Below, in pieces: positions 2,836-32,515 of a stretch of 37,865 nucleotides of DNA. A program made the translations under genes and the position numbers. Below the pieces are notes generated by a model. It was given only the letters and a program-made list of their open reading frames with translations, was not told where the DNA came from and ran no database searches. The stretch's first letter is position 1, and the number at the start of each line of letters is the position of its first letter. The DNA comes from a virus: positions 1-37,865 of IMG/VR virus record IMGVR_UViG_3300047548_001782; one strand, written 5' to 3'.

Positions 2836-3432
2836 TTAATCGAAGTAAAACCAACCTGTTATTATATATTTTGCTTTATCACCATGAACAACATTACCCC
2901 TGTGTGAATGGGTAAAAGCTGCTGGCCAGATAAGCATTGTATTTTCTTGTGGAGGAACTCTCATTTTTTGGTATAAAAATTCTGTTTCCCCTGCAGCATC
3001 CTCATCTAAAGAATTCAAATATAAAATATATGTTAATACTCTATTTGCGGAATCACCATCACCCTGTTCTCCATGCCATATATGATAACCTGCTCCAGGA
3101 ACAGTTTTCTGCATCTTTACTGATGTACATTTTATGGACATATCCTGTAAAGTGTCATACTCGGACAAGTATGAATCATAACAATTCTGAAGACCTTCAA
3201 AAAATACATCAATACAGGAATTGCCATTAAATGGTGATGGGTGGTGATTTTTTAAATTTAAAAATAAGAATTCATCATTTTTTGTTGATTTTTTTGCCCC
3301 TTCACTATCTTGACGATTTCCACAATAACCACCAGCACTAAATCTCTCAAATTCGGATATCATATGTGAGCAAAAACCATCAACATATACATTATTATAC
3401 ATTCCAATAAACTCATGATAGTTGCTATTCAT
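2836..3432 (-). CDS. 2OG-Fe(II) oxygenase, prolyl-4-hydroxylase-like, 198 aa
   Basis: This is probably an Fe(II)/2-oxoglutarate-dependent hydroxylase. The jelly-roll core is visible from about residue 100. A likely iron ligand pair lies in YHIWHGEQGD (His120-x-Glu122, HxE instead of the common HxD). It is followed by the strand RVLTYILYLN, then GETEF, a distal His in FTHSHRGN (His175 or His177), and a Lys near residue 186-188 before YIITGW that would bind the 2-oxoglutarate carboxylate. The order and spacing match the phage/prolyl-4-hydroxylase branch of the superfamily. It is the promoter-proximal gene of a unit with the collagen-like fibre gene (6 nt gap), so that fibre is the obvious candidate substrate. 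The enzyme family is well supported; the substrate is inferred from adjacency only. Confidence 0.82.
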   Translation of the reverse strand: MNSNYHEFIGMYNNVYVDGFCSHMISEFERFSAGGYCGNRQDSEGAKKSTKNDEFLFLNLKNHHPSPFNGNSCIDVFFEGLQNCYDSYLSEYDTLQDMSIKCTSVKMQKTVPGAGYHIWHGEQGDGDSANRVLTYILYLNSLDEDAAGETEFLYQKMRVPPQENTMLIWPAAFTHSHRGNVVHGDKAKYIITGWFYFD

Positions 3433-3471: not shown

Positions 3472-6400
3472 CTATGTTGAGTAATTATATAGTGCTACTG
3501 CACCATACCAAGTAGTTCCCTGATCTGGGGTTACAAAAATCCAAACATCAGTTCTAGATGCTTCTAAAGTTCTTACTGGTGCTAAACCATTAGGGAACTT
3601 AAAGTTAGTTGGCCAAGAAACAGAAAGATTTGCAGAGTTATTTCTTAAATATAAAGTAAAACTAGAAGCAGTAGTTGCACCAGTCAGCACATTGGAAACA
3701 GTAAACGAACTATTTCCAGTAATATTAACAGTAAATACATTAGCAACGTCTAAATCTAAATTTATTGCTCCACTTCTATTACCTAATGCTTGAACTGTTT
3801 CACCATAATTTCTCAGAACAAGTCTAGTTACGTTCACTCCATTGAATGTGCTATCTGCATTTACATCTATTGATGTAAATCTAGCAGATGCTCTTGTTGT
3901 TATACCAATTGGTGTATTATCAATATTACCACCATTAATGTCAACATTATTTCTAATAGTGGTAATTCCCGATGTACCACCAATATTCACCCAAGAAGCA
4001 GCACCAGCAAAATCTACTCTAGTAGCATTGGTATTAATTAATTTAAATAATCCAGTAGTAGTTGTAGTTAAATCATCACCATCAACATTTAAATCACCAT
4101 CAATGTCTACATTATTTCTTATTCTTGTGGTTCCTGTTGTAGCTCCAAGAACTATATTTGTTGCTGCACCAAAAATATTTGCTGTTGTTACTGTGGAATT
4201 TAGTAGATTAAATGTAGTTTGATCAGTTGTAATGTCACCACCATTTACTGCTAGATCCCCACCAAATTGACCATTGCCACCAACAAACAGTCTCTTAGCA
4301 ACTCCAAGACCACCTTTTACTACTAATGCACCAGTATCAGTGGAATCGGACTCTTTAGTACCACGTATAGTAGTTGTTGATTGATCATTATCAATCGCAA
4401 TATTAACATTTCTTGCACCAAAGAATGCATTTACTGTTGGATTTACTGAAGGAAGTAGACTGAAAGATTGAACTCCAGGAGCATCAATCAAATCACCATA
4501 CATTATAATATCGTTAAGAACAGTTAGAGTTCCATTTGATTCAACTTTTAATTTTGTTTCACCAACAGCATCAAAATTCTCGCTTCCATAAGCAACAGTT
4601 GTTGTTGGGTTCGCAAGTTTCCAAGAATAACCATCACTAGTATCAATACCAGCATACCAACGACGATTTGCATTATTATTCGTAATATCCCAGGACAGTA
4701 CAACATCCCCAGTACCACCTTGATTAATTTTGAAGTGAGCACCAGCAAGATTTTGCCCAGAGTTATTCTGGAATGTTGTTACTGTTCCCGAAGCACCAAC
4801 TCTTATTCTTTCTAATCCATTTGTACATAAAGAAATTGTAGAACCAAAATCAGATGCATTTAATTTAAGAACTCCACTGCCTCTGTGTAAGATTTCAGAA
4901 TCAACAGCACTACCAATACCTGCCGGACGGATGATCTTTAAAGCACCATCAGGATAAACTCTATCGTCATTATGTAATGACAGAGATGAACCAAGATTTG
5001 TACTTCCAACACCAAGTCTCAAATCTCTAGCATTATTGATTGATGCCTTAATCTCACCACCAATTGAAGTCGTAAAACCAGAAATTAATTCAAACTTATT
5101 GCCATTTACAATTAAATCATCAATAATATTTGTGATTCCACTAAAACTATTAATTGTTAAGTTTCCAGCTGTGGTGTCAATTGTGTTGTCATTAGTTACT
5201 GCGATTTGAATATTTCCAAAATCTGCTCCTGGTCCATAAATGTTAGAATTAAACTGAACAACTCCATCAAATGTAGAAATTCCAACTACTTCTAGATCAT
5301 TTAATCTGGATATACCAGAATAGTGAATCTGAGTGTAATTTGTTGTAAGACCAGTTACTGGGTCTAAACCAGTGGCATAAAAATATCCAGTTCTATTGAC
5401 AAAAATATTTTGGAAAGTAACATTTCCTAATGTTTGTGGTTGAGTGAAAATTACACTTCCATCTACAGTTAAATTCTCTACTCTACTTTCACCACTAACA
5501 ACAAAATCAAAGTTTGTATTGTCTGGAGTATTGACGGATAGTTTATCAACACCCATATATAAACTACCAGCATCTCTACTGATTAAACCAAATGGTCTCC
5601 ATTCAGTTCCAACACGAACATGACCAATATATTCATCTGGATTAGATAGTAAAGATATATCACCAGGACGAGAAGATGGAATAGTAAGTGAAGTTGGGGT
5701 AGATATACCAACTGTAATTAGTTTTGGTTGAGATGCAGTACCCTTTATGAATAGATTTTTGGTTTCAATACCAAATTCAGATAAATTAGTAACTTTTTGA
5801 GTAAAGTTTACTGGTCCATAGAATTGGGAAGTTTGATTGTTACCTTCACCACCTTCAACTGTAATTCTTTGTCTTACAAGTAATTCATCAAAAATTCCAC
5901 TTGAAGATGATCCACCCTGTCCCTGTGCATCATCTCCAGTATATGTAAGAATTGGAGCATCAACTACTGTTTGTTCACCAGTTGCAGAACTTAACTTGGT
6001 TGCACCAGAATAGAATTCACCAATATCATTCATTCCGGTGTATACAACAGTTCCACCTCTTCTTTCTTTTGACTGAGAGACAATAACTTCATCATCAGAA
6101 AGAACTCTATCTTGCTTCTGAGGCATACCAGTTGAATAGTTACCAGGACCATAACCAAGATACTCAAAGGTATGACTTGATGCTCTCATAAATGAAGGTC
6201 TACGTAATTCTGATGGAATTACCTTTATTTTTTTCGCAATAGATCCAGAAAGAGCATTGCCCTTAAATGTTCCTAGCTGTCCCCTTAAAACAGTAAATGG
6301 ATTTTCATTGCCCGCAATCCTTATAATTTCACTATTAATTACAAAATAATCTCCTCGTTTTATTCCACTAGGATCAGAAAAACTTACTGTACTACTAGTT

Positions 6401-9400
6401 AAATCTATTGCGGTATTAATATAAGCATCAAAACTATCATACAAATACAATCCTCTAGAGAAAAGATTTTCTTCACCGTTTCCTAGACTTCTTCCATTTG
6501 AGCTAAATCCTCTCTTAAGAACAGATCCCTGAGTAACTCCTGATATTTCATTTGTGGATCTAGAAATAAAGGTAAAAGTAGTTAATCCTACAATATCTTT
6601 AATTACCGCATATCCATTTAAATTTGAATTACCACTTTCAATGATTTTAATTTTATTTCCTGGTAATAATCCATGAGCAGACTGAGTAGTTACTGTAGTT
6701 ATTCCTGTATCAGTATCGCTTAATTCTGCATTTAAAATTGAGATTGGTCCACTGGAAATAACCACAAATGGACTTTGGTTGTTTGTATTTTGTATATAAG
6801 ATGGTAATTGTTTTTCTGTATATAATAGCAATTCTTTAGAATTGGGTACAGATAATACCCTATATACATCATTTAAATCTTTTTGGAAAAATCCACTAAG
6901 TTCCACAGAATAATCTTTTGCATCTACGATAGATGTTACTGTAACAATACTTGGAGAACTACCTCCAGGAATACTGAGAGTATCATTGACACTATATGCA
7001 CTTCCAGAATCCAATAATTCAACATTAGTTACTTGTCCAGATGCATTGGTCTCTACTTTAACAGTTGCTCCTCTACCATTTGATATTACTTGCTGAAGAG
7101 TTCTTGCATATAAAGTAGAAGACGCTGGATATCCAGATCCAGAACTAAATGTAAACGATTTTATAGAATTTAAGTTATGTTCTATTTCAGTTCGTGCAGA
7201 AATAGTTGTACTTCCAATACCAGTAACTTGTGCATCTGTTAGTGCTATTCCAATTCTTGCATTTTTGACATAATATGATATTGCTTCTTTTGTTATGGAA
7301 TTCTTTTTATCATTTGTTATAACTCTTCCAATAACAGATAAATCGGAATAACTTACTGCTGCATCTGGATCTGATTCAATATTATCACGATCTAGTTGTG
7401 GATATAAGTTTCTTACATCCTGATTAAATTTTTTGTCTGATAAATTAAATCCTACTTGCTCAGATGGTGAAACGTTTGATGCAAGAGCAGTTAAGTGATA
7501 AACACCATCTTGACCTTCTTGACCAGGAATATGTTTCTTGATCTGGGTACTTCTATATACAAAAAATGTATCTTTATAAGATTCTCTTGAGACTACTGGG
7601 AGACTTTCTCTTTGTTGTCTTGTAGTTCTGGAATTAATATCATTTGTAAATGATCCGGGGTTAGTAGTAACTCCAGAAATTGAGTAAGTGAACTGCTTTG
7701 AATTAAGAACGGATGTAATTGTATGGAATCCATTAAATGTAGAGGTTATTCCTATTGCATCTGGATTATTTGTACTTCTTATTTTTTGTATCTTTACATT
7801 ATCACCAACATACATTCTATGAGGAAGTTCTGTAGTGATAGTGACTTCTTGCTCACCATTAATAATTACACCACCAGAAGCATTGACAATAATCTTTTCA
7901 TTTCTTAAATCTCTGGAACTAGTCAATACATCATTGGTATATGAAATGCTTGTTACACCAACTGTTTTGGATTCTTGTAAAATAAATCCAGCAGTTGGTT
8001 GTCTTGCATTTGTGAATTCTTTTGGAATAACATATCTAAGTCGGTATATTTTATCATTAATTGAACGACTATCTGATATTCTTCTTATGAATGTTGATGA
8101 AGTTTCATTTCCAAGAACAACAATACCAGTATCTAAGATTGCATAATATATTTCGTTTTCTGATGGAACCAAAGATCCTGTGATATACCAATTATTTTCT
8201 GCGGGATCCCATTGTATTGGATGTCCAATTTCACCTGGTAGTTTATCTGAAACTCTACTTACAATTTTTAATCTTCCACCATTATTATTAATTCCCAAAA
8301 TAGGAATTCCCGATAAAGCATCATTAAGTGATTGTGCTACTTTCAACTGTGATGATCCAAATCCATCTGTGATTGCATAATATATTCCATCATTCTCCAG
8401 TCCATCTGGTACTTGTCCAGTATCACTAGTAATTCTTATCTTTTCACCATTAATTAATTGGTGATTAGTAGTTAAAGTAAATAAATTTGATACAATATTA
8501 TTGGTAGAACCAGTTCTTTCTATATCATATTCTTTAAACGCAGAAACTCCATTTCCACCATCCACTGGCATTAATATTGGTGTGGTGTAAGTTGTTTGTG
8601 CTGTACCAATCGTGATGGTTAGATTTAATTTATCATCTCTTGATGCACCTAACCTATAACCATCTACTTGGTGTACAGGTAAAATTTCCTCATTAGTTGC
8701 TCCAAAAATATATAATTTACTTATATCTGATGAATTTATAATTTTTTCGGTATCTAAGGATACCCAAGATACTACGTTTTCTTCTTCTGGTATCTCTCTT
8801 GGTGGTAAAATGTGAGTAACATATCCAACATCATCCCTATCAAAGGATTCTACTTTAAACCCTTCCGATTCTAATGATGTAGCACCAAAGTTTGAGTTTG
8901 AGTTGGTGATAGACATATCAGAACCAGACTCAGTTAAAAAGTGTCTGGCAAAACCAATAGCAAAAACGGAAACGTTTTGGATGAATGCATCATTAGATGC
9001 ACGAATATGGTAGTTCTCGTACTTAGGTTTAAATATTGATCTGGAATTAGTATGTAATGGTCTATCTACACTATTGAGAGGAAGTGTAGCATTATCATAA
9101 AATGCACCATCTTTATATAAGATGAATGCATTATTATCTTTTTGTAGAGAAACTCCAGTAAACTGAGCAACAACCATTGATTTGAATCCTGTTGCTTTAG
9201 CACCATCTGCCCACAATCCGTTCATTCCATAAACAGATCTAAGGGAACAGTTGAAAATATATGGAGAAGCAGAACTTACTGTATCACTTCCTACAGTCAA
9301 GGATGCAGTATCAATATCATTAACAGAAGGTAAAAATTCAGATGGCGCTTCATTGGTAACATAAGTAAATGTAGTTAATCCAACTACTTCTTTAACTGTA

Positions 9401-10434
9401 AATGATCCATTGTATGAATCTGGATCTACAGTCACTCCATTTATGATAAATGGACTATCAACGAAAAGGTTGTGAGGAACTGTTTCTCCAGTCTGAAGAT
9501 TGGAAGTCGTAACAGTAATTATATTAAAGTCTCCTGTTCCATCTCCATTACCAGATCTAATACTTGAAATTCCAAGTGGATTTGGGTCTAAAGATCCAAC
9601 TATTCTAAATTCATCAACGTTTGGTTCAAAATCAAAAGATGTTGGATAATCTGATAAACTTCTACCTGTAATATCACCATATGCCTTAGTGACCTTGTAG
9701 TAATACATATCAAGGTCAGTCAAATAAGTTTGATAATTACCAAGATTTACTTTGTTTACACCATCCGCATAAGCAAACGTAGTTACTTTATGGTGTGAGT
9801 AATTTGGAACTACTCTTGATGTTGGGGAATAATTTTTATATACGGTCTTTGTTGGATCTCCATCAAATATACTAAATGCGGTAAAGTAACAAGTACCTGT
9901 AACGTTAAAAATACTTGTGACATCAATATCCTCATCTTCTGGATCGGGAACAAACAGAGGACGAATTTTTGTCTTTCTTAAATCTAATCCAATAATTGAT
10001 GTTCCTCTAGGGAGAATAACACCACCAGTTACTGAATTAAATTTATATAATTCATTTCCTGCGTCAAGTATATCATAATTTGTAAATTCACTTAACTCTG
10101 AAATTGTGTCTGGTGTCCAGGTATTTGGTCCTGTTCTTCTTTTATATACAGCAGTTCCATTGATATTTTCAACTGATACTCCTGGTCTATTATCAATATA
10201 ATGAGTACCAGGATAAACTAGAATGGTTGTTCTATCAATTCTATCGTTATTTCTTCCTTGCTGATATGAAAACCTTGCTGCTTCAATTAGAGCTCTTTGG
10301 ATTGTTTTGAAAGGTCTTGTTAATGAGTTACCCTGATTTTCAAAACTGTCAGTAGCATCAAAATCTGATGGGTTTACATATAAAATATTACCTTCAGCAT
10401 TTTTGAGAAAATTCTCTAACCTAGATAGTGGCAT
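3472..10434 (-). CDS. Very large virion structural / tail-fibre-like protein, 2320 aa
   Basis: This is the largest gene in the window. The N-terminus (MPLSRLENFLKNAEGNILYV) is of a type seen in big cyanomyovirus structural proteins. Residues about 30-530 look like a right-handed beta-helix (pectin-lyase-like), with PFKTIQRALIEAA and ILVYPGTHY near the start and ITNSNSNFGATSLESEG near residue 515. Later parts are a string of beta modules. An H-L-x-x-G/V-D type module recurs near residues 328, 658, 871 and 1255, often ending in TTFTY or TTFTF. A GSGY module lies near 1100-1150, and an SSHTFEYLGYGPGNY module near 1418. From about residue 1700 the protein turns fibre-like, and near 2090-2200 there are tandem units ending in TTRIRNNVDI and TTIRNNVDI. 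It is probably a tail fibre or baseplate-attached appendage; which T4 part it replaces cannot be told. Confidence 0.75.
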   Translation of the reverse strand: MPLSRLENFLKNAEGNILYVNPSDFDATDSFENQGNSLTRPFKTIQRALIEAARFSYQQGRNNDRIDRTTILVYPGTHYIDNRPGVSVENINGTAVYKRRTGPNTWTPDTISELSEFTNYDILDAGNELYKFNSVTGGVILPRGTSIIGLDLRKTKIRPLFVPDPEDEDIDVTSIFNVTGTCYFTAFSIFDGDPTKTVYKNYSPTSRVVPNYSHHKVTTFAYADGVNKVNLGNYQTYLTDLDMYYYKVTKAYGDITGRSLSDYPTSFDFEPNVDEFRIVGSLDPNPLGISSIRSGNGDGTGDFNIITVTTSNLQTGETVPHNLFVDSPFIINGVTVDPDSYNGSFTVKEVVGLTTFTYVTNEAPSEFLPSVNDIDTASLTVGSDTVSSASPYIFNCSLRSVYGMNGLWADGAKATGFKSMVVAQFTGVSLQKDNNAFILYKDGAFYDNATLPLNSVDRPLHTNSRSIFKPKYENYHIRASNDAFIQNVSVFAIGFARHFLTESGSDMSITNSNSNFGATSLESEGFKVESFDRDDVGYVTHILPPREIPEEENVVSWVSLDTEKIINSSDISKLYIFGATNEEILPVHQVDGYRLGASRDDKLNLTITIGTAQTTYTTPILMPVDGGNGVSAFKEYDIERTGSTNNIVSNLFTLTTNHQLINGEKIRITSDTGQVPDGLENDGIYYAITDGFGSSQLKVAQSLNDALSGIPILGINNNGGRLKIVSRVSDKLPGEIGHPIQWDPAENNWYITGSLVPSENEIYYAILDTGIVVLGNETSSTFIRRISDSRSINDKIYRLRYVIPKEFTNARQPTAGFILQESKTVGVTSISYTNDVLTSSRDLRNEKIIVNASGGVIINGEQEVTITTELPHRMYVGDNVKIQKIRSTNNPDAIGITSTFNGFHTITSVLNSKQFTYSISGVTTNPGSFTNDINSRTTRQQRESLPVVSRESYKDTFFVYRSTQIKKHIPGQEGQDGVYHLTALASNVSPSEQVGFNLSDKKFNQDVRNLYPQLDRDNIESDPDAAVSYSDLSVIGRVITNDKKNSITKEAISYYVKNARIGIALTDAQVTGIGSTTISARTEIEHNLNSIKSFTFSSGSGYPASSTLYARTLQQVISNGRGATVKVETNASGQVTNVELLDSGSAYSVNDTLSIPGGSSPSIVTVTSIVDAKDYSVELSGFFQKDLNDVYRVLSVPNSKELLLYTEKQLPSYIQNTNNQSPFVVISSGPISILNAELSDTDTGITTVTTQSAHGLLPGNKIKIIESGNSNLNGYAVIKDIVGLTTFTFISRSTNEISGVTQGSVLKRGFSSNGRSLGNGEENLFSRGLYLYDSFDAYINTAIDLTSSTVSFSDPSGIKRGDYFVINSEIIRIAGNENPFTVLRGQLGTFKGNALSGSIAKKIKVIPSELRRPSFMRASSHTFEYLGYGPGNYSTGMPQKQDRVLSDDEVIVSQSKERRGGTVVYTGMNDIGEFYSGATKLSSATGEQTVVDAPILTYTGDDAQGQGGSSSSGIFDELLVRQRITVEGGEGNNQTSQFYGPVNFTQKVTNLSEFGIETKNLFIKGTASQPKLITVGISTPTSLTIPSSRPGDISLLSNPDEYIGHVRVGTEWRPFGLISRDAGSLYMGVDKLSVNTPDNTNFDFVVSGESRVENLTVDGSVIFTQPQTLGNVTFQNIFVNRTGYFYATGLDPVTGLTTNYTQIHYSGISRLNDLEVVGISTFDGVVQFNSNIYGPGADFGNIQIAVTNDNTIDTTAGNLTINSFSGITNIIDDLIVNGNKFELISGFTTSIGGEIKASINNARDLRLGVGSTNLGSSLSLHNDDRVYPDGALKIIRPAGIGSAVDSEILHRGSGVLKLNASDFGSTISLCTNGLERIRVGASGTVTTFQNNSGQNLAGAHFKINQGGTGDVVLSWDITNNNANRRWYAGIDTSDGYSWKLANPTTTVAYGSENFDAVGETKLKVESNGTLTVLNDIIMYGDLIDAPGVQSFSLLPSVNPTVNAFFGARNVNIAIDNDQSTTTIRGTKESDSTDTGALVVKGGLGVAKRLFVGGNGQFGGDLAVNGGDITTDQTTFNLLNSTVTTANIFGAATNIVLGATTGTTRIRNNVDIDGDLNVDGDDLTTTTTGLFKLINTNATRVDFAGAASWVNIGGTSGITTIRNNVDINGGNIDNTPIGITTRASARFTSIDVNADSTFNGVNVTRLVLRNYGETVQALGNRSGAINLDLDVANVFTVNITGNSSFTVSNVLTGATTASSFTLYLRNNSANLSVSWPTNFKFPNGLAPVRTLEASRTDVWIFVTPDQGTTWYGAVALYNYST

Positions 10435-20688: not shown

Positions 20689-21372
20689 CTATAACTCCAA
20701 CCACTGAGATGGGTGTGTGCATCCTTGATGGTGTTTATAATGCTCTGGTTTAAGAGTAACTCTTAAATCACCAGCAATAGCACACCTTTCATTGACTCTG
20801 GGAATAGTTTTTTTGGTATGATGATAAGTTCCTGTTGGCATTATTAACACAGTACCTTCGTGTGGAGTTATGGTATAATGATTGCAGTTAAACTTATTAA
20901 ACCCAGTCATTACATTATACTCATCCGCAACATCAAACCATCCCTCGCATACTTGATTTGCATTGTCATCTGGAACTCTACTTACGACGAACTTATCAGA
21001 TGTGTCGTCAGTGTTTAAATAATAAACAAAACTTATATTTGCTTCATTATGCTTATGAAATGCTAATGGTGGGGTAGTATCATCTCTATGGTATACCACC
21101 CAAGATTTTACTATATGATAGTCCATTAAAGTATAGTCAATCCCCAAAACTTCAAGATACTCATTTAATGCATCCTTTAGGGAGATGAAAAATTGCTTAT
21201 ACTCTTCTTTTAGATGCACGAATATTCTTGAAGATGCCTCTGGAGACTCATATTCATATCCATTAAACCAATATTTCTTTAAACTTTCGTAGTGCTTTTC
21301 CTTAAATTCTTTATGGCAACTTATAGATGTCTGATGAACTGCTAAAGGAAAAACTTCGTGAGTTTTTCTCAT
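20689..21372 (-). CDS. Second 2OG-Fe(II) oxygenase-like protein, 227 aa
   Basis: The predicted double-stranded beta-helix core has LAFHKHNEANISFVYYLNTD (residues 103-122), with His106/His108 and Glu110 as candidate iron ligands. It is followed by ITPHEGTVLIMPTGTYHHTK (168-187) with the distal His at 184/185, and Arg196 in NERCAIAGDL as candidate 2-oxoglutarate binder. The pattern resembles phage 2OG-FeII oxygenases of the PF13759 type (HxH ... FP..H ... R). It is only distantly like the oxygenase at 2836-3432 and is not a duplicate by eye. It lies between two structural genes (8 nt after the 290-aa gene), so a virion-protein substrate is plausible. A sugar or metabolite substrate is the alternative. 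Confidence 0.7.
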   Translation of the reverse strand: MRKTHEVFPLAVHQTSISCHKEFKEKHYESLKKYWFNGYEYESPEASSRIFVHLKEEYKQFFISLKDALNEYLEVLGIDYTLMDYHIVKSWVVYHRDDTTPPLAFHKHNEANISFVYYLNTDDTSDKFVVSRVPDDNANQVCEGWFDVADEYNVMTGFNKFNCNHYTITPHEGTVLIMPTGTYHHTKKTIPRVNERCAIAGDLRVTLKPEHYKHHQGCTHPSQWLEL

Positions 21373-22842: not shown

Positions 22843-25443
22843 TTATATACAATCAACTACTTTAATAATTCCTTGCTGATTCACGGTAATTATTGGTTGC
22901 TTCAGTTTTGGTGAAAGTGTTAATATTGGGAACAATCTAGCACCTTCTCCTGTTCTTGTATTAATTGTTAAATCTGGTAACTCACCAAATTCTGTAGTAC
23001 AAGTTGTTGATTTTACCCCGATTATCGCTCCAGATTGAGAAACAATGACATCAAAAGTACAATTGCCAACATTTACTCTATCACCATCAGTATATCCTGT
23101 CCCTGGATTTCTAATAACAATACTAGTGACAACACCAACAATACCTGTTCCAATTCCAGTTTCACCACCAAAATCTGTGCTTATGCCAGGGAATATTGGT
23201 CTGGAAATAGTTGTATTTCCGATTCCAGTTCCACCACCATCACCTGGAATGAATGTTCCTAAAGGTGATTCTACAGGATTATTTGGTGCAGGAGCAAGAA
23301 CTGGAGATAATTCATTACTGAGAATAACTGTTGCTCTAGCAACTTTTAATCCTTCTGGATCTAATAAATCAAAATTAACAACTTCCGCATTTTCATTAAT
23401 ATTATCCTGCCTAAATTTAAATGATTTTGTTGCCTTCCCTGAACTTAATTTGACACTTCCATATAAACTATCAACACCTTCAATATCTTCAACAGTTATA
23501 TCTCCCAAAATTTCATAATCAAGAACAGTTCCATCTGGAAGATTCTCGGCACTTATATTAAAAATTACCGTTTCACCCTCATAAAAACTATACTTATTTG
23601 CTGTTACTAAGTAAGTAGGTGCTTTTATAATTGAATTCAAATTCGGTTTACAATACCCTGTTCCTGAATTATTTAAATATATCCCAGTCACTTGACCATT
23701 TACTACTTCTGCTGTTGCTTGACCACCAGATCCATGATTTGTATTATCACGTATTACTATCGTTGGTGGTTTAGAATAACCTTTTCCTGGATTTATTATT
23801 TCTATTGCTAATATACCACCCGAATCACTGACAATAGGAACTGCTTGTGCCTGAACACCATCCCCAAAAATTTCAATTTCTGGAGGAAGACAACTGTTTG
23901 CTGTCATTCCTGGAGGTAATGGGAGTTGATCTTTTTGTTTCTTTGGTCTCAATGCCTTTTCTGTGCAATCTTTATATGGAGAATTTCCCCTATAACCATA
24001 TAGTGACATTTGACCCATAGCAAGATTCAAGTTTGAATTTATACCCTTAAGGACATTCATACTCTTAAGAGTTCTATTCCAACTATCGGATCCTCCCTTT
24101 TCTGGTCCACCACAGGGAGACCATTGCGTTGGAGTTTCGCACTGCAATCTATCACAAGACAAAAAGCTCAGAATTTGTTGGGCAATTGAGGATACTTTCC
24201 CTAAAATTTCACTAACTTGTCCAACTGCACCAAGTAACCAATTTAATCCAGAAAAAATGGGGGCAAGGAGACTCTCAATAGAATCCATTAACTTAGTAAG
24301 AATTGCACCAACTGCTTGTTCAACCGCACATAAAGGAGCATTAATTGCTTTACCAACCATTTTGGCAAGCATATTTGTAATAAAATCCAGTAATAATGGT
24401 AGTAACTTTTCAAAAACACAAAATATAATATCTACAATATTTTTAGTTGCACCAGCAATTGGGGGTTGCTGAGGCAGTGGAACTATTAATCCAATAAATT
24501 GTCCAAATAATTTTGTAACCAAACCAATAATACCATTACGCATATTATTGATAATGAACTTAATTATACCTACTATATTACTTGCAAATTTTCTTATTTC
24601 TGTAGTAATATCTACTAAAGTGTTTAGAACTGGGTCAATATAAGTATCAATTGCTTTTTCTAATCTATTAACAAATGCAATAAAATCTTGAATTACTTTT
24701 GATATTTTTGCAATTATATTGTCATTACAACCATTTTCTCTAACTATTTTTAATTGGCAACCCTTAAGAGTAAACTGTTGTGTTGCTAATGATTTTCTTA
24801 TTAGCTGATCCCCACCAGGTTTATTCTGCTCTCTTGCTGCAGGTACTGGATCCCCAACTGTACTTGATGTTTGAATGCCAACTTTTGGATCAGCTGCATC
24901 CTTTGGTTCTTCTTGAACTGCTTGATTTTTTTCTCTTATCTGAGTTGCACCTTGAATGAGTGGTCCTTGGTGTCCTGTAAAAGGTTTAAATTGTGAACTT
25001 TTTTCTTTTGCTAAAAACTCAGGAGTTGCAAAATTTGTTACACTCTCATTTCTATATAAACAACCAACAATAATTGGTTGTTGGGCATCTTCACCATCTA
25101 AGAAGAAACCATAAACAGTTTCTCCACCCACGAGCATCATTGTTTTTCCAACACTTCCTTGAGCAGTCCCATTTTCTGGAGACATGGAAACATGTGCCCA
25201 AGGAAGATCAATATCAGGAAGAATATCTCCATCAAATGTATGATATCCTACTATTCTAACTTTACAACGATATGCCCAACTTTCCCCTATCTTTGGGTTC
25301 CCTTTATCGTCTCTCTTATTTTCTCCAGCGTCAAATTTTGACTTTTCATTTCTCCAAACAGCAGCAGGTGCTACTTGGCCTATCCACCAAATAAATCCGT
25401 CTCTTCCTAAGAAGTTTGATTTTAATAAAGATTCTTCAATCAT
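22843..25443 (-). CDS. gp5: gp5-like baseplate central spike/hub protein without lysozyme domain, 866 aa
   Basis: The N-terminus (MIEESLLKSNFLGRDGFIWW) and the following OB-fold (YRCKVRIVGYHTFDGDILPD, WAHVSMSPENG, GETVYGFFLDGEDAQQPIIV to about residue 130) identify the cyanophage gp5 type. T4 gp5 next carries a lysozyme domain, which is absent here. Instead residues about 240-440 are long amphipathic helices, then a Cys-containing conserved segment (CDRLQCETPTQWSPCGGPEK). Next come two GxGY modules (near 554 and 598), a Calx-beta-like domain (YSFYEGETVIFNISAENLPD onward, about 625-710) and a third GTGY module near 781. Lytic activity is supplied by two other proteins nearby. Its start overlaps the end of the 69-aa gene by 8 nt. 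Confidence 0.82.
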   Translation of the reverse strand: MIEESLLKSNFLGRDGFIWWIGQVAPAAVWRNEKSKFDAGENKRDDKGNPKIGESWAYRCKVRIVGYHTFDGDILPDIDLPWAHVSMSPENGTAQGSVGKTMMLVGGETVYGFFLDGEDAQQPIIVGCLYRNESVTNFATPEFLAKEKSSQFKPFTGHQGPLIQGATQIREKNQAVQEEPKDAADPKVGIQTSSTVGDPVPAAREQNKPGGDQLIRKSLATQQFTLKGCQLKIVRENGCNDNIIAKISKVIQDFIAFVNRLEKAIDTYIDPVLNTLVDITTEIRKFASNIVGIIKFIINNMRNGIIGLVTKLFGQFIGLIVPLPQQPPIAGATKNIVDIIFCVFEKLLPLLLDFITNMLAKMVGKAINAPLCAVEQAVGAILTKLMDSIESLLAPIFSGLNWLLGAVGQVSEILGKVSSIAQQILSFLSCDRLQCETPTQWSPCGGPEKGGSDSWNRTLKSMNVLKGINSNLNLAMGQMSLYGYRGNSPYKDCTEKALRPKKQKDQLPLPPGMTANSCLPPEIEIFGDGVQAQAVPIVSDSGGILAIEIINPGKGYSKPPTIVIRDNTNHGSGGQATAEVVNGQVTGIYLNNSGTGYCKPNLNSIIKAPTYLVTANKYSFYEGETVIFNISAENLPDGTVLDYEILGDITVEDIEGVDSLYGSVKLSSGKATKSFKFRQDNINENAEVVNFDLLDPEGLKVARATVILSNELSPVLAPAPNNPVESPLGTFIPGDGGGTGIGNTTISRPIFPGISTDFGGETGIGTGIVGVVTSIVIRNPGTGYTDGDRVNVGNCTFDVIVSQSGAIIGVKSTTCTTEFGELPDLTINTRTGEGARLFPILTLSPKLKQPIITVNQQGIIKVVDCI

Positions 25444-25645
25444 CGAAAATTCTACATTCAGGTGCGTCTGGGTTTAAATCACAAAGCAACTCAAAATGAG
25501 TTGGGACTGCATTTTCTTCTGGATGGTTCTTTTGATATTCCAGCAATTCGGACAGATAATTTTTTAAATATCTGCTTCTCTGTCTATTTATTGAAGGACT
25601 TTCTAGTTCTTCGCAGATATCGTTAATTAGATTTTGAAGTTCCAT
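25436..25645 (-). CDS. Small conserved-type hypothetical protein, 69 aa
   Basis: Helical acidic protein starting MELQNLINDICEELESPSIN, with LKNYLSELLEYQKNHPEEN in the middle and ending LNPDAPECRIFDD. It sits between the gp27-like hub gene (7 nt gap) and gp5 (8 nt overlap), a position that implies translational coupling and a role in hub or spike assembly. No family is recognised. Size and helix content would suit a small assembly chaperone. Confidence 0.65.
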   Translation of the reverse strand: MELQNLINDICEELESPSINRQRSRYLKNYLSELLEYQKNHPEENAVPTHFELLCDLNPDAPECRIFDD

Positions 25646-28930: not shown

Positions 28931-30813
28931 TATCCGTCAACAATATTATAGATTATTTTTGAATAAAGAATTAGGAAATTATCCGTATTTCCTGCAGGCA
29001 AGAATGGAGCAGTTGGACCTTGTGCTCCAGCAGGTGCCGCAGGACCAGAAGATGGAGATTGCGAACCAGAAGATTTCTGTTGTGGCATCTGTGTACTGAA
29101 ATCAAACGGCATCACATTTACACTTGGTGCTGCTTGTGATGGTGGTGGTTGAGAAACTTTAGTTGCCATATTTTTCAATTCTTCTCTCTTTTCTGGTGAT
29201 AATGCCCAATCTGGTAAATCGGGACCACCCATTCCCTTTGCTTGAACTTGTGCTCTTGCTTCTTTAAGATTTTCTTTATAAAGTTTTGCTGTTCTGCCTA
29301 AATTTCCTCCTTGCCCATAATATTCACCCAAACCTGCCCATTCTTTTTGTAAAACTTTAAAATCTGCAGGAGTTAATTCTTTACTTACATCAATTCCCCT
29401 CTTTTTCTTAGCTAGATATAAAATCATTTGATTTTGTAATTCTGGAGTAAATTTAACTTTACTTGGATCCATTCCCATTTCACGGACAATTTGCTCAGGA
29501 TATAAAAATTGTCCAGCACCAACAGCTGCAGAATTTCCTCCTTTCCATCTTCCTCTTCCTTCTGCCAAAAATTTTTCTTGTATTTTTTTAACTTCCGTTA
29601 CTGTTTTTGTTGATAAATCCCCACCGTACTGACTTCCACCAAAGAATGTATTATAACCTTGTGATCCAGCAGTTCCTTCTGCTTCTCTTACTGTTGCTAT
29701 AAATGCCTTTTCTTCTGGAGTGCCTGTGATTATGTCTTTAGCATTAAGTGGACCTGATTTACCTTCTGTAGAAGTAGGAGCACCAGGACCACTTGAAGTA
29801 GAAGGGGCACCACTAGGACTGGTTTTGGCACCACCTCCTCCTCCAGAAGTTCCACCAGACTTATCATTAGAACCTTTGATTAAACTATTAACCGCAGAGG
29901 TAAATGATTCTACAATTCCACCAAGACCTTCAACTAGACCACCCATAAATCCAGGTTGTCTTTGAACAGATGCAACACCAGTATCTGCAAGAGCATTTAC
30001 TGCACCAGCACCTGCTGCTAAACCACCAGCACCAAGAGCAAACATTCCACCTTTCTTCATTAAATTGCCAAGTCCTTTGGGGGCATTTTGCTTCAATCCT
30101 TGCCCAGGAACTTTTACATCAATATTTAATCCTGGACTTCCAGATGGTGATGCAGTAGGAAGATTTGATAGTTGTCCAACTATTTTATTAATCGTGTTTC
30201 GAATTAATTTTGCAACTTCAAAACTATCTGCAAATATCTTTTGTAATGATTTTAAATTTGTATCTAAATTATCTAAATTTTTCTTACTTGCAAAAAACTG
30301 AATGAAGTCTAAAGCACCTTTAAATACCTTTAAGAAGTTTCCAAGAATACCAGTTGGTTTTGCATCATCAACTTCAGAAACTTTTTTTCTATATTCTTCA
30401 ACAAGTTTAGTTATAGTTGAATCTGCCTGTTGAGTTATATTTGTAACGGCAGATTGTAATTGCGTTATATTGTTTTCTTGCTTTGTGTAAAGAGGTTGTA
30501 TCTCTCTAGTTACCTCAGAACGAACTTGCTCTACTTTTGCATCTACATTTTTATTGACTATATTAGTTACACTTTCTATCTGGTTAGAAACTTGACTTAA
30601 GATATTTGAAGAAATTGTATTAACAATGGAACTTAAGTCTGGTGTTGCTGGTCTAACCGATGCCCTTTGAAATCCTACAACATTATTTGCAGCACTAGAA
30701 ACAACAGAACTGCCAAGAGGAGCACCACCAGAAACAAAGTTCTGAAAGGAAGATGGGGATACCTTTCTTCCTCCTACAATTTTTTCTGGTGATAGCAGGG
30801 AACTAACTGGCAT
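28930..30813 (-). CDS. Tail (tape-measure region) protein with lambda-lysozyme-like muramidase domain, 627 aa
   Basis: Residues about 55-145 are a long coiled coil (ILSQVSNQIESVTNIVNKNV onward). Residues 160-215 form a hydrophobic helical region and 245-300 a Gly/Ala-rich segment (GLGNLMKKGGMFALGAGGLA). A low-complexity Ser/Gly/Pro linker (about 315-355) precedes a domain at about 365-525. There, AFIATVREAEGTAGSQGYNT (Glu379 is the expected catalytic acid), FFGGSQYGGDLS, AVGAGQFLYP and LQKEWAGLGEYYG match the layout of the lambda R lytic transglycosylase. It should cleave the glycan strand, complementing the M23 peptidase encoded next. Placement right after the tail chaperone pair suggests it is, or is part of, the tape measure. 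It overlaps the 60-aa ORF by 11 nt. Confidence 0.77.
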   Translation of the reverse strand: MPVSSLLSPEKIVGGRKVSPSSFQNFVSGGAPLGSSVVSSAANNVVGFQRASVRPATPDLSSIVNTISSNILSQVSNQIESVTNIVNKNVDAKVEQVRSEVTREIQPLYTKQENNITQLQSAVTNITQQADSTITKLVEEYRKKVSEVDDAKPTGILGNFLKVFKGALDFIQFFASKKNLDNLDTNLKSLQKIFADSFEVAKLIRNTINKIVGQLSNLPTASPSGSPGLNIDVKVPGQGLKQNAPKGLGNLMKKGGMFALGAGGLAAGAGAVNALADTGVASVQRQPGFMGGLVEGLGGIVESFTSAVNSLIKGSNDKSGGTSGGGGGAKTSPSGAPSTSSGPGAPTSTEGKSGPLNAKDIITGTPEEKAFIATVREAEGTAGSQGYNTFFGGSQYGGDLSTKTVTEVKKIQEKFLAEGRGRWKGGNSAAVGAGQFLYPEQIVREMGMDPSKVKFTPELQNQMILYLAKKKRGIDVSKELTPADFKVLQKEWAGLGEYYGQGGNLGRTAKLYKENLKEARAQVQAKGMGGPDLPDWALSPEKREELKNMATKVSQPPPSQAAPSVNVMPFDFSTQMPQQKSSGSQSPSSGPAAPAGAQGPTAPFLPAGNTDNFLILYSKIIYNIVDG

Positions 30814-30985
30814 TTGCTTGTTGCTGTTGTTTCAACTTTTCGTCTTCTATATGCTGTTGTAGTAATCCAACGTAAATATCACGTTCCCAGGGCATCATAT
30901 TTTCAATCTCAGTCAATGAATATTTATGGAACTGCATCAAAGCAAAATTAATTTTAAAATATGACTCAAGTTCCATGTGAGCCAT
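30803..30985 (-). CDS. Short ORF in the -1 frame after gp26; probable tail-chaperone 'T' extension, 60 aa
   Basis: Begins MAHMELESYFKINFALMQFH and contains YSLTEIENMMPWERDIYVGL before a Gln-rich end. The S-L-T-E-I-E-N-M-x-x-W-E-R pattern resembles the C-terminal part of frameshifted tail assembly chaperones (lambda GT type). No Shine-Dalgarno precedes the first ATG: the upstream bases are TTTTTTCGGCTAATT. The frame is open upstream of that ATG to the slippery site in gp26 and lies in the -1 frame relative to gp26. It is therefore more likely translated as a gp26 fusion than on its own. Independent expression by reinitiation across the 2-nt gap remains possible. Confidence 0.7.
   Translation of the reverse strand: MAHMELESYFKINFALMQFHKYSLTEIENMMPWERDIYVGLLQQHIEDEKLKQQQQANAS
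30963..30983 (-). promoter_or_regulatory. Possible frameshift-stimulating RNA hairpin
   Basis: On the minus-strand RNA, GGCUCA pairs with UGAGUC around a 9-nt loop (6 bp including one G-U). It starts 10 nt after the slippery heptamer. It is a weak stem, but placed where stimulatory structures are found. Confidence 0.35.
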
Positions 30986-30987
30986 AA

Positions 30988-31716
30988 TTAGCCGAAAAAA
31001 CTTGTTAGTCCCTCTAGTTTAACAGTATTTTCTACACCTGTTTTTGGGTTTTTAACAGTAATTGTATGAGACAATTTGGGCATTGTCTCAAAGAAAGTTT
31101 CAATTTGTTTGAATTGGGTAGAATTCATTTGTTCTATGAAATCAACTAATTCTTTTTTAGTGCAATCTGCTGCTGCCCAAGAATCTTCATCATTATAAAT
31201 CATATCAATGCAAGAAGCAATAATATCAAAAGATTTTTCAATATTTGATTCACTTTGTGTTGAACCAAAATCAAAATTGTTTTTAATAAATTGATCCAAT
31301 GAAGGATACTTCATTCTTAAAATCAATTTACTATCAAGGTGAATATCTACTTTATGATTTGGATCTTTTTGTACTTTAATTTCATCAATATAAACTGTTA
31401 CTGGAACTTGTGTTTCACCATCATCATAACAAGTAACGATCAAATCAATACTTTCACCGACAGATTTTCCCCTAACATTGAGGAAAATATACTCAATATC
31501 AAAAGTTGGAAGTTCCTCTACTTTGATTCCCTTCGTAATAATACATTCTTTTAGTACTTGTTTAATTGCATTAGTAATTTGCTTAGTATCTTGACTTTCT
31601 AATGCAAGAATAAGTATTTTTTCTTCTCTTACTAAAAATGGTCTATACTTTATAGTTTTTCCAGTTGACGGCAAATCCAACTCATAAGTTGGTGCAGAAA
31701 TTTTTGGTAATGGCAT
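30988..31716 (-). CDS. gp26: gp26-like baseplate hub / tail assembly chaperone, 242 aa
   Basis: Matches the T4 baseplate protein family (PF12322 type; T4 gp26 is 208 aa). Key segments are the N-terminal KISAPTYELDLPSTGKTIKY with RPFLVREEKILILALES, then VEELPTFDIEYIFLNVRGKS, SKLILRMKYPSLDQF and IASCIDMIYNDEDSWAAADC. Members bind and chaperone the tape measure or hub during tail initiation. The zero frame ends AGT TTT TTC GGC TAA. The T TTT TTC heptamer is a canonical -1 slippery site, and the -1 frame continues into the 60-aa ORF. A minority gp26 fusion of about 304 aa is therefore predicted. A CTAAATAT box lies 27 nt before the ATG. Confidence 0.85.
   Translation of the reverse strand: MPLPKISAPTYELDLPSTGKTIKYRPFLVREEKILILALESQDTKQITNAIKQVLKECIITKGIKVEELPTFDIEYIFLNVRGKSVGESIDLIVTCYDDGETQVPVTVYIDEIKVQKDPNHKVDIHLDSKLILRMKYPSLDQFIKNNFDFGSTQSESNIEKSFDIIASCIDMIYNDEDSWAAADCTKKELVDFIEQMNSTQFKQIETFFETMPKLSHTITVKNPKTGVENTVKLEGLTSFFG
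30994..31000 (-). promoter_or_regulatory. Candidate -1 programmed frameshift heptamer (U UUU UUC)
   Basis: The last sense codons of gp26 are AGU UUU UUC GGC UAA. A -1 slip on UUU UUC gives UUU UUU, then CGG CUA AUU AUG GCU CAC, reading straight into the 60-aa ORF. It lies just before the gp26 stop, as in lambda G/GT. Confidence 0.65.
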
Positions 31717-31743: not shown

Positions 31744-31751
31744 ATATTTAG
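31744..31751 (-). promoter_or_regulatory. Putative late promoter box (CTAAATAT)
   Basis: The minus strand reads GGTCTAAATATTAA, 27 nt before the gp26 ATG and overlapping the end of the gp54-like gene. Core and spacing agree with other candidates here. Confidence 0.45.
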
Positions 31752-32515
31752 ACCCTTAAAGTACCCCTATTTCTTTCAATAACATATCTAGAATAGTCAA
31801 ATGTCACTGTAGTTTTTGTTATCGTTGAACCCTCATACGATAAAGGAAGTGCTGTAATATTAGTTGGAAAAGCATCAATCATTCTATATGTGATTGAAGG
31901 TACATTTCCGAGAGCACCTCCAGATATTGCAGGGTTTTGTCTAAAGTTTCTTTCAAACTTAATTATAGAAATAATTCTCTTATATGTATTTGGATATCTC
32001 ATTTTAAAGAAATTTTCTCTATCTTTTGCTGCACCCTGACCAAAAGGAGTTGATGGATATATTCCACCAGAAGTATATACTGGATTGATATAATTCATCC
32101 ATTCTTCAAATAATCTTATTAATCTGTAATCATTATCAACATAAAATGTCATTGTAAATTCTGGATATATTCTTCTCATTGGGAATTTTTCAATAACTCC
32201 CTGACGACTTCCTGATTCCTCAGTAACATCAAAAGTTGCTCCTGGTAAAGATGCTTCAGAGCAAAAGAAATCATAATATGTATTTTGTGCTGGGTCTGTA
32301 GTTAAATCTGCTTTTCTAAGCCATTCCATCAATTCTTGATCTCCACCTTGCCCACCTTGTCCATTAGTTAAGTGCAAAGAAACTTTAAATTGACTTGTTT
32401 GAGATAATGCACCAAAAACATCTATTGCTCCAGCAAGAGTTGGATTAACTCTTGGTGAAGTAGTTTTCATATAAAGTGGGCCAATCTCAGGATATCCTGC
32501 TCCTTCTCCTGCCAT
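31748..32515 (-). CDS. gp54: gp54-like baseplate tail-tube initiator (gp19-type tube fold), 255 aa
   Basis: Contains the signature of T4 tail-tube-like proteins: YDFFCSEASLPGATFDVTEE (about residues 80-99), a GSRQGVIEKFPMRRIYPEFT segment, then TFYVDNDYRLIRLFEEWMNY (about 120-140). The C-terminus has DAFPTNITALPLSYEGST, followed by VTFDYSRYVIE. T4 gp19 and gp54 share this tube fold; position at the start of the hub genes, next to the gp48-bearing operon, favours gp54, which caps the baseplate and starts tube polymerisation. A second tube protein (gp19) remains possible. It is divergent from gp4 with a 37-bp gap, and no strong Shine-Dalgarno is seen. Confidence 0.75.
   Translation of the reverse strand: MAGEGAGYPEIGPLYMKTTSPRVNPTLAGAIDVFGALSQTSQFKVSLHLTNGQGGQGGDQELMEWLRKADLTTDPAQNTYYDFFCSEASLPGATFDVTEESGSRQGVIEKFPMRRIYPEFTMTFYVDNDYRLIRLFEEWMNYINPVYTSGGIYPSTPFGQGAAKDRENFFKMRYPNTYKRIISIIKFERNFRQNPAISGGALGNVPSITYRMIDAFPTNITALPLSYEGSTITKTTVTFDYSRYVIERNRGTLRV

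Follow-up and report, generated by a model that had tools for sequence, protein, structure and literature searches.

The closest described arrangements are the G/G-T genes of phage lambda, the dnaX gene of E. coli and the tail assembly chaperone (TAC) genes of T4-like phages. The lambda heptamer reads G GGA AAG. The gp26 locus described here would share with lambda a -1 slip shortly before the short form ends, a small C-terminal domain added by that slip and an adjoining tail tube gene; it differs in its heptamer and in its contractile-tail, T4-type setting. The E. coli dnaX cassette comprises a Shine-Dalgarno (SD)-like element about 10 nt upstream, a slippery heptamer and a downstream hairpin. 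Our site resembles this cassette in its heptamer flanked by an SD-like motif and a predicted hairpin, but its heptamer is U-rich whereas that of dnaX is A-rich, and the slip in dnaX yields a shorter product. Frameshifting is reported by Vladimirov, Gautam and Davidson (2022) to be conserved in several groups of T4-like phages, with genes 26 and 51 serving in T4.

A passage in PMC12846349 presents poly-T sequences as known -1 signals in the TAC-N genes of T4-like phages and credits them to Vladimirov et al.; according to a passage in PMC10885494, which credits the same authors, frameshifting is replaced in some T4-like phages by two separate genes, one for the short form and one for the longer, fused form. 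Neither gp26 nor gp51 is mentioned anywhere in PMC8718954. The preliminary description of this DNA had known of no described case in a T4-like setting. This was wrong: to judge from articles citing it, the work of Vladimirov et al. (Virology 2022) treats these genes, and the phage analysed here would be one more example of their T4-like TAC-N/TAC-NC pair (Vladimirov, Gautam & Davidson 2022, Virology 566:9-15). The frameshift mechanism itself is established, and its use has been reported for other phages, T4 relatives among them. The SD-like element, the relatives lacking a start codon and the non-slippery Phe-Phe codons in relatives of T4 are possibly new.

The gp26 locus and its -1 reading frame

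The window, that is the whole 37,865-nt stretch of the IMG/VR virus record IMGVR_UViG_3300047548_001782, belongs to a T4-like cyanophage and carries a gp26-type ORF followed by a short ORF in the -1 frame (Table 1). Profile searches matched the gp26 ORF to PF12322 (E 1e-72; 244.8 bits against a curated cut-off of 24.5 bits) and to phrog_150 (E 6.4e-80). Its 3' end reads AGT TTT TTC GGC TAA, and the -1 frame continues as CGG CTA ATT ATG GCT with its first stop only at 30803-30805. The preliminary description had proposed this gp26 end, the heptamer and a stop-free -1 reading into the 60-aa ORF; coordinates and codons were all confirmed, and no SD core was found before the 60-aa ORF, again as proposed. 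When the two readings were joined in silico, the resulting 304-aa fusion contained LTSFFRLIMAHMELE.

Taken together with the comparative data given below, gp26 very probably is a tail assembly chaperone gene in which a -1 slip on U UUU UUC adds the 304-aa TAC-NC to the short TAC-N. The majority of ribosomes would stop at TAA and release TAC-N, while a minority would slip one base back on the heptamer, enter the -1 frame and complete TAC-NC. Pairing with an SD-like element upstream and a hairpin downstream would aid the slip. The C-terminal helical domain of TAC-NC would then be the protein known from cyanophages as 'gp51'. By analogy with lambda G/GT, a mixture of TAC-N and TAC-NC may hold the tape measure protein, as the presumed partner of the pair, during tail assembly.

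Table 1 Features of the gp26 locus and further ORFs of the window
Feature	Position	Strand	Remarks
Upstream neighbour, tail tube protein	31748-32515	-	PF23849 E 5.5e-15; phrog_45 E 6.8e-36
gp26-type ORF, short form (TAC-N)	30988-31716	-	242 aa, zero-frame product; PF12322, phrog_150
Predicted frameshift fusion, long form (TAC-NC)	30803-31716	-	304 aa, joined in silico
SD-like AGAGGGA, putative dnaX-type stimulator	31009-31015	-	8 nt 5' of heptamer
Slippery heptamer T TTT TTC	31000-30994	-	next letters GGC TAA
-1 reading after the predicted slip (TAC-C domain)	30803-30994	-	63 codons + stop; phrog_634 E 4.5e-28
Downstream hairpin	30960-30986	-	9 bp (one G-U), starts 7 nt after heptamer
60-aa ORF, cyanophage 'gp51'	30803-30985	-	begins 2 nt past gp26 stop, -1 frame
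Downstream neighbour, 627 aa	28930-30813	-	ATG overlaps -1-frame stop; no SD core
Tail-region protein, 656 aa	26960-28930	-	M23 peptidase domain at residues 317-410
69-aa ORF amid tail genes	25436-25645	-	CP12 domain (PF02672, E 7.6e-9)
Two 2OG-Fe(II) oxygenase-like genes	2836-3432 and 20689-21372	-	phrog_61, phrog_81
Very long ORF	3472-10434	-	2320 aa

The last four rows of Table 1 are side observations on the window. CP12 is a regulator of carbon metabolism.

Conservation of the predicted slip site and access to the C-terminal domain

Relatives were collected from seven scans of viral contigs and from 13 GenBank regions. The two largest contig scans contributed only their best 80 matches each (best 80 of 597 and best 80 of 599 confirmed stretches), so that close relatives are over-represented; from GenBank, 11 of the 1065 records matching gp26 were examined, together with P-SSM2, which was reached by a search with the 60-aa ORF. 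There were 287 sequences in the set, made up of the window and 286 loci, and 286 of the sequences had a tblastn match. Sixteen were left out because they had no match, had T4 gp26/gp51 as their best match or reached no stop within the stretch; 271 loci were analysed. The following counts refer to 132 representatives, dereplicated at 90% gp26 identity and including the window; they are not independent trials because the rows are related.

An in-frame T TTT TTY was found within the last 24 gp26 codons of 124 of the 132 representatives, as TTTTTTC in 113 and as TTTTTTT in 11. Exactly one codon separated heptamer and stop in 113/124. Beyond the slip point the -1 frame was open for 46-73 codons, into the same C-terminal domain, in 123/124; in the remaining locus (L012) it reached the contig end after 37 codons. 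The check suggested earlier, whether heptamer and -1 phase persist in relatives, thus turned out in favour of the proposed slip. That the T run is no more than a consequence of AT-rich codon choice for Phe-Phe has next to no probability. Phe is indeed coded more often by TTT than by TTC throughout these genes (978 vs 423), and the codons for the amino acids preceding the site end in T in about 61% of cases elsewhere in the genes; yet only 5 of 122 other Phe-Phe pairs of the same genes read T TTT TTY, relatives of T4 retain the pair as TTC TTT, and the -1 frame is both open and homologous.

Eight of the 132 representatives were without the canonical heptamer, having no Phe-Phe at this place and NTT TTY instead. 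They retained NTT TTY, one codon and the stop, and their -1 frame was open beyond this point and encoded a related domain. Four best matched a Kuttervirus, two (L169, L172) are named Ackermannviridae and two (L168, L173) are unclassified Vibrio phages; L171, also classed as Ackermannviridae, had the heptamer TTTTTTT. The canonical heptamer was absent from the gp26 genes of Kuttervirus type and of Miltonvirus (L167, L169, L184-L201), in which ATT or GTT TTC, one codon and the stop were present and the -1 frame was nevertheless open and homologous.

A stutter of RNA polymerase on the T run would also produce a fusion, from altered mRNA, and six or seven consecutive T might in principle suffice as its site. 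Such transcriptional slippage is very improbable here: the T stretch is short and kept in phase (113 TTTTTTC, 11 TTTTTTT), the eight non-canonical relatives have just four or five T, and the SD-like element described below would be expected to act on ribosomes.

The annotations of many relatives imply two separate proteins, with the 60-aa gp51 made alone by termination-reinitiation at TAA-TT-ATG; of 11 annotated records examined from phages other than T4, 7 list a small separate gene in the -1 frame, and the joined product is marked in none of the 11 in the stretches examined. An ATG does occur within eight codons after the slip point in 97/124 representatives, as the fourth codon and usually 2 nt past the gp26 stop codon in 78/124, so that separate initiation would be possible there. 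An SD core 5-18 nt ahead of this early ATG, however, was found in just 1/97; where the gp26 ORF has its first ATG, the figure was 50/123. Moreover, 25/124 representatives had no ATG, GTG or TTG within the first eight codons, five of them none within 20 codons, and 22 of the 25 were also without a start upstream in that frame. No ordinary start gives access to the whole C-terminal domain in Aeromonas phage 65 or in Kuttervirus Marshall, although an ATG is present at the junction in the Kuttervirus-like loci L198-L200. Frameshifting is the simplest way to the whole domain in the phages without a start. Separate synthesis would furthermore require another cause for the codon constraint on the heptamer, and in T4 the same domain forms the end of a gp26-like protein; we consider it improbable. 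Separate initiation, transcriptional slippage and chance through codon bias were all rated low against frameshifting.

Elements flanking the heptamer

In 111/124 representatives the heptamer was preceded, at a distance of 5-16 nt, by the end of an SD-like 4-mer, and in nearly all of them this distance was 8-11 nt. The count expected from synonymous shuffles, which preserve codon use but not relatedness, was 74.4 ± 5.4, with a maximum of 86 in 100 runs.

For the downstream side, a stem of 6 bp at 10 nt had been proposed. A hairpin is predicted, but it has 9 bp from 7 nt after the heptamer, and the six are its inner pairs. Its arms TATGGCTCA/TGAGTCATA gave -9.2 to -9.3 kcal/mol when 35-60 nt were folded; with 80 nt, the lowest-energy structure consisted of other pairings (-14.4). 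Over the 124 representatives, the 45 nt starting 7 nt downstream had a mean z of -1.86 vs dinucleotide shuffles, and four control windows had mean values of -0.08 to -0.53. For a consensus structure downstream, no pairs were predicted by RNAalifold or, on 39 rows, by the fold_alignment tool, and Rfam returned no match at the gathering threshold.

The stem of the window was found with at least seven of its nine pairs in 35/39 close relatives and in 7/48 and 0/21 more distant relatives, and the register of the hairpin varies among relatives. Over the 39 close rows (38 distinct), this stem had 89.2% of its cells paired vs 25-51% in slid versions. It exceeded all 500 shuffles in cells paired, double-changed cells and covariation score; the other two of the five measures, pairs with a change on both sides and further pair types, were not above the shuffles, and double changes occurred at only one stem pair (G-U to U-G, 10 rows). 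Both kinds of element are thus enriched around the heptamer and would be putative stimulators of slippage.

Relation to T4 gp26 and gp51, predicted fold and neighbouring genes

In T4, gp26 (208 aa) and gp51 (249 aa) are encoded on opposite strands. According to a section of a T4 tail review, both are hub assembly chaperones (PMC3004832). Both matched PF12322 (E 8.8e-64 and 3.9e-52), and T4 gp51 further matched phrog_634 (E 1.2e-23) as well as phrog_150, of which positions 13-280 of 282 were covered. The profile of the cyanophage-type fusion aligned with T4-type gp51 from near the start to the end (E 1.8e-19), free of gaps at the slip point, where the fusion side reads SFFRLIMAHMELESYFKINF; its alignment with T4-type gp26 extended only as far as the slip (E 8.3e-25). 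Consistently, the C-terminal domain alone matched T4-type gp51 (E 6.8e-8), but there was no match to T4-type gp26 (E 0.57). By these alignments, T4 gp26 and gp51 are paralogues, gp26 corresponding to the short form and gp51 to the long form as a one-gene version of the fusion.

The T4-type set comprised eleven loci, two of which (L180, L181) had no gp26 row above the cut-offs. In these T4 relatives gp51 is a gene of its own, and the Phe-Phe at the junction was coded TTC TTT in 7 of their 9 rows; of the other two, one (L176) is cut by the contig end and one (L179) has Phe-Ile. In T4 itself the -1 frame is stopped immediately at the junction. T4 therefore has two genes for what seems to be achieved in its relatives by a single slip site.

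The structural model of the window gp26 (pLDDT 86.6) ends in a short helix at residues 237-241. The model of a T4-type gp51 (pLDDT 86.9) has a helix at the equivalent place (196-203), followed by three more. With the gp26 model, the first two Foldseek matches in the PDB were the HK97 tail assembly chaperone 2ob9, with weak E values of 0.91 and 1.1. The VIA search placed 3fgx (Z 8.0), 2ob9 (Z 8.0) and 3klu (Z 7.1) on top, with alignments of 84-86 residues at 3.8-4.3 Å and the next match at 4.8, although, as the tool itself notes, models that have no clear relatives often reach a best Z of 7-8. All three structures are listed as phage tail assembly chaperones in a part of PMC9603447. The N-terminal domain of gp26 is accordingly modelled with a TAC fold, at a Foldseek E of only 0.9 and at Z values that are common. 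Sequence searches returned no solved relative of gp26. For the T4-type gp51 model, no TAC was among the best 50 of 145 Foldseek PDB rows or among the VIA rows listed (best Z 4.8); its matches in BFVD were mostly gp26/gp51 relatives, together with one 'tape measure chaperone'. Because of the paralogy of gp26 and gp51, the collinearity of gp51 and the structural TAC matches, gp26 and its fusion may be regarded as a lambda G/GT-type pair of TAC-N and TAC-NC. The G/GT strategy put forward in the preliminary description, with a -1 slip yielding a tail chaperone and its fusion, is on comparative grounds strongly supported for this phage.

In lambda and many tailed phages such genes lie just ahead of the tape measure gene, and the next gene here had been described as a long coiled-coil tail protein. 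The tail tube gene lies directly upstream of the locus; the 627-aa downstream gene matched no tape-measure family in profile searches. Among 115 loci examined, a next-gene ATG was found in 107; it overlapped the -1-frame stop in 66/107 and was without an SD core in 92/107. The missing SD core says little alone, since gp26 is also without one in 73/123. The overlap would lie at the very stop where frameshifted ribosomes terminate, and the arrangement would allow a coupling of the next gene to the slip. That the slip serves twice, for the long chaperone and for the supply of the next tail protein, is a rather unlikely extension of the model; if true, the chaperone ratio and the downstream tail protein would be tied to one slippage rate.

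Instead of existing as a free protein of 60 aa, the 'gp51 baseplate hub assembly catalyst' of cyanophages most likely forms the C-terminal part of a frameshift product. This would tie gp26 and gp51, the hub proteins of T4, to the logic of lambda G/GT.
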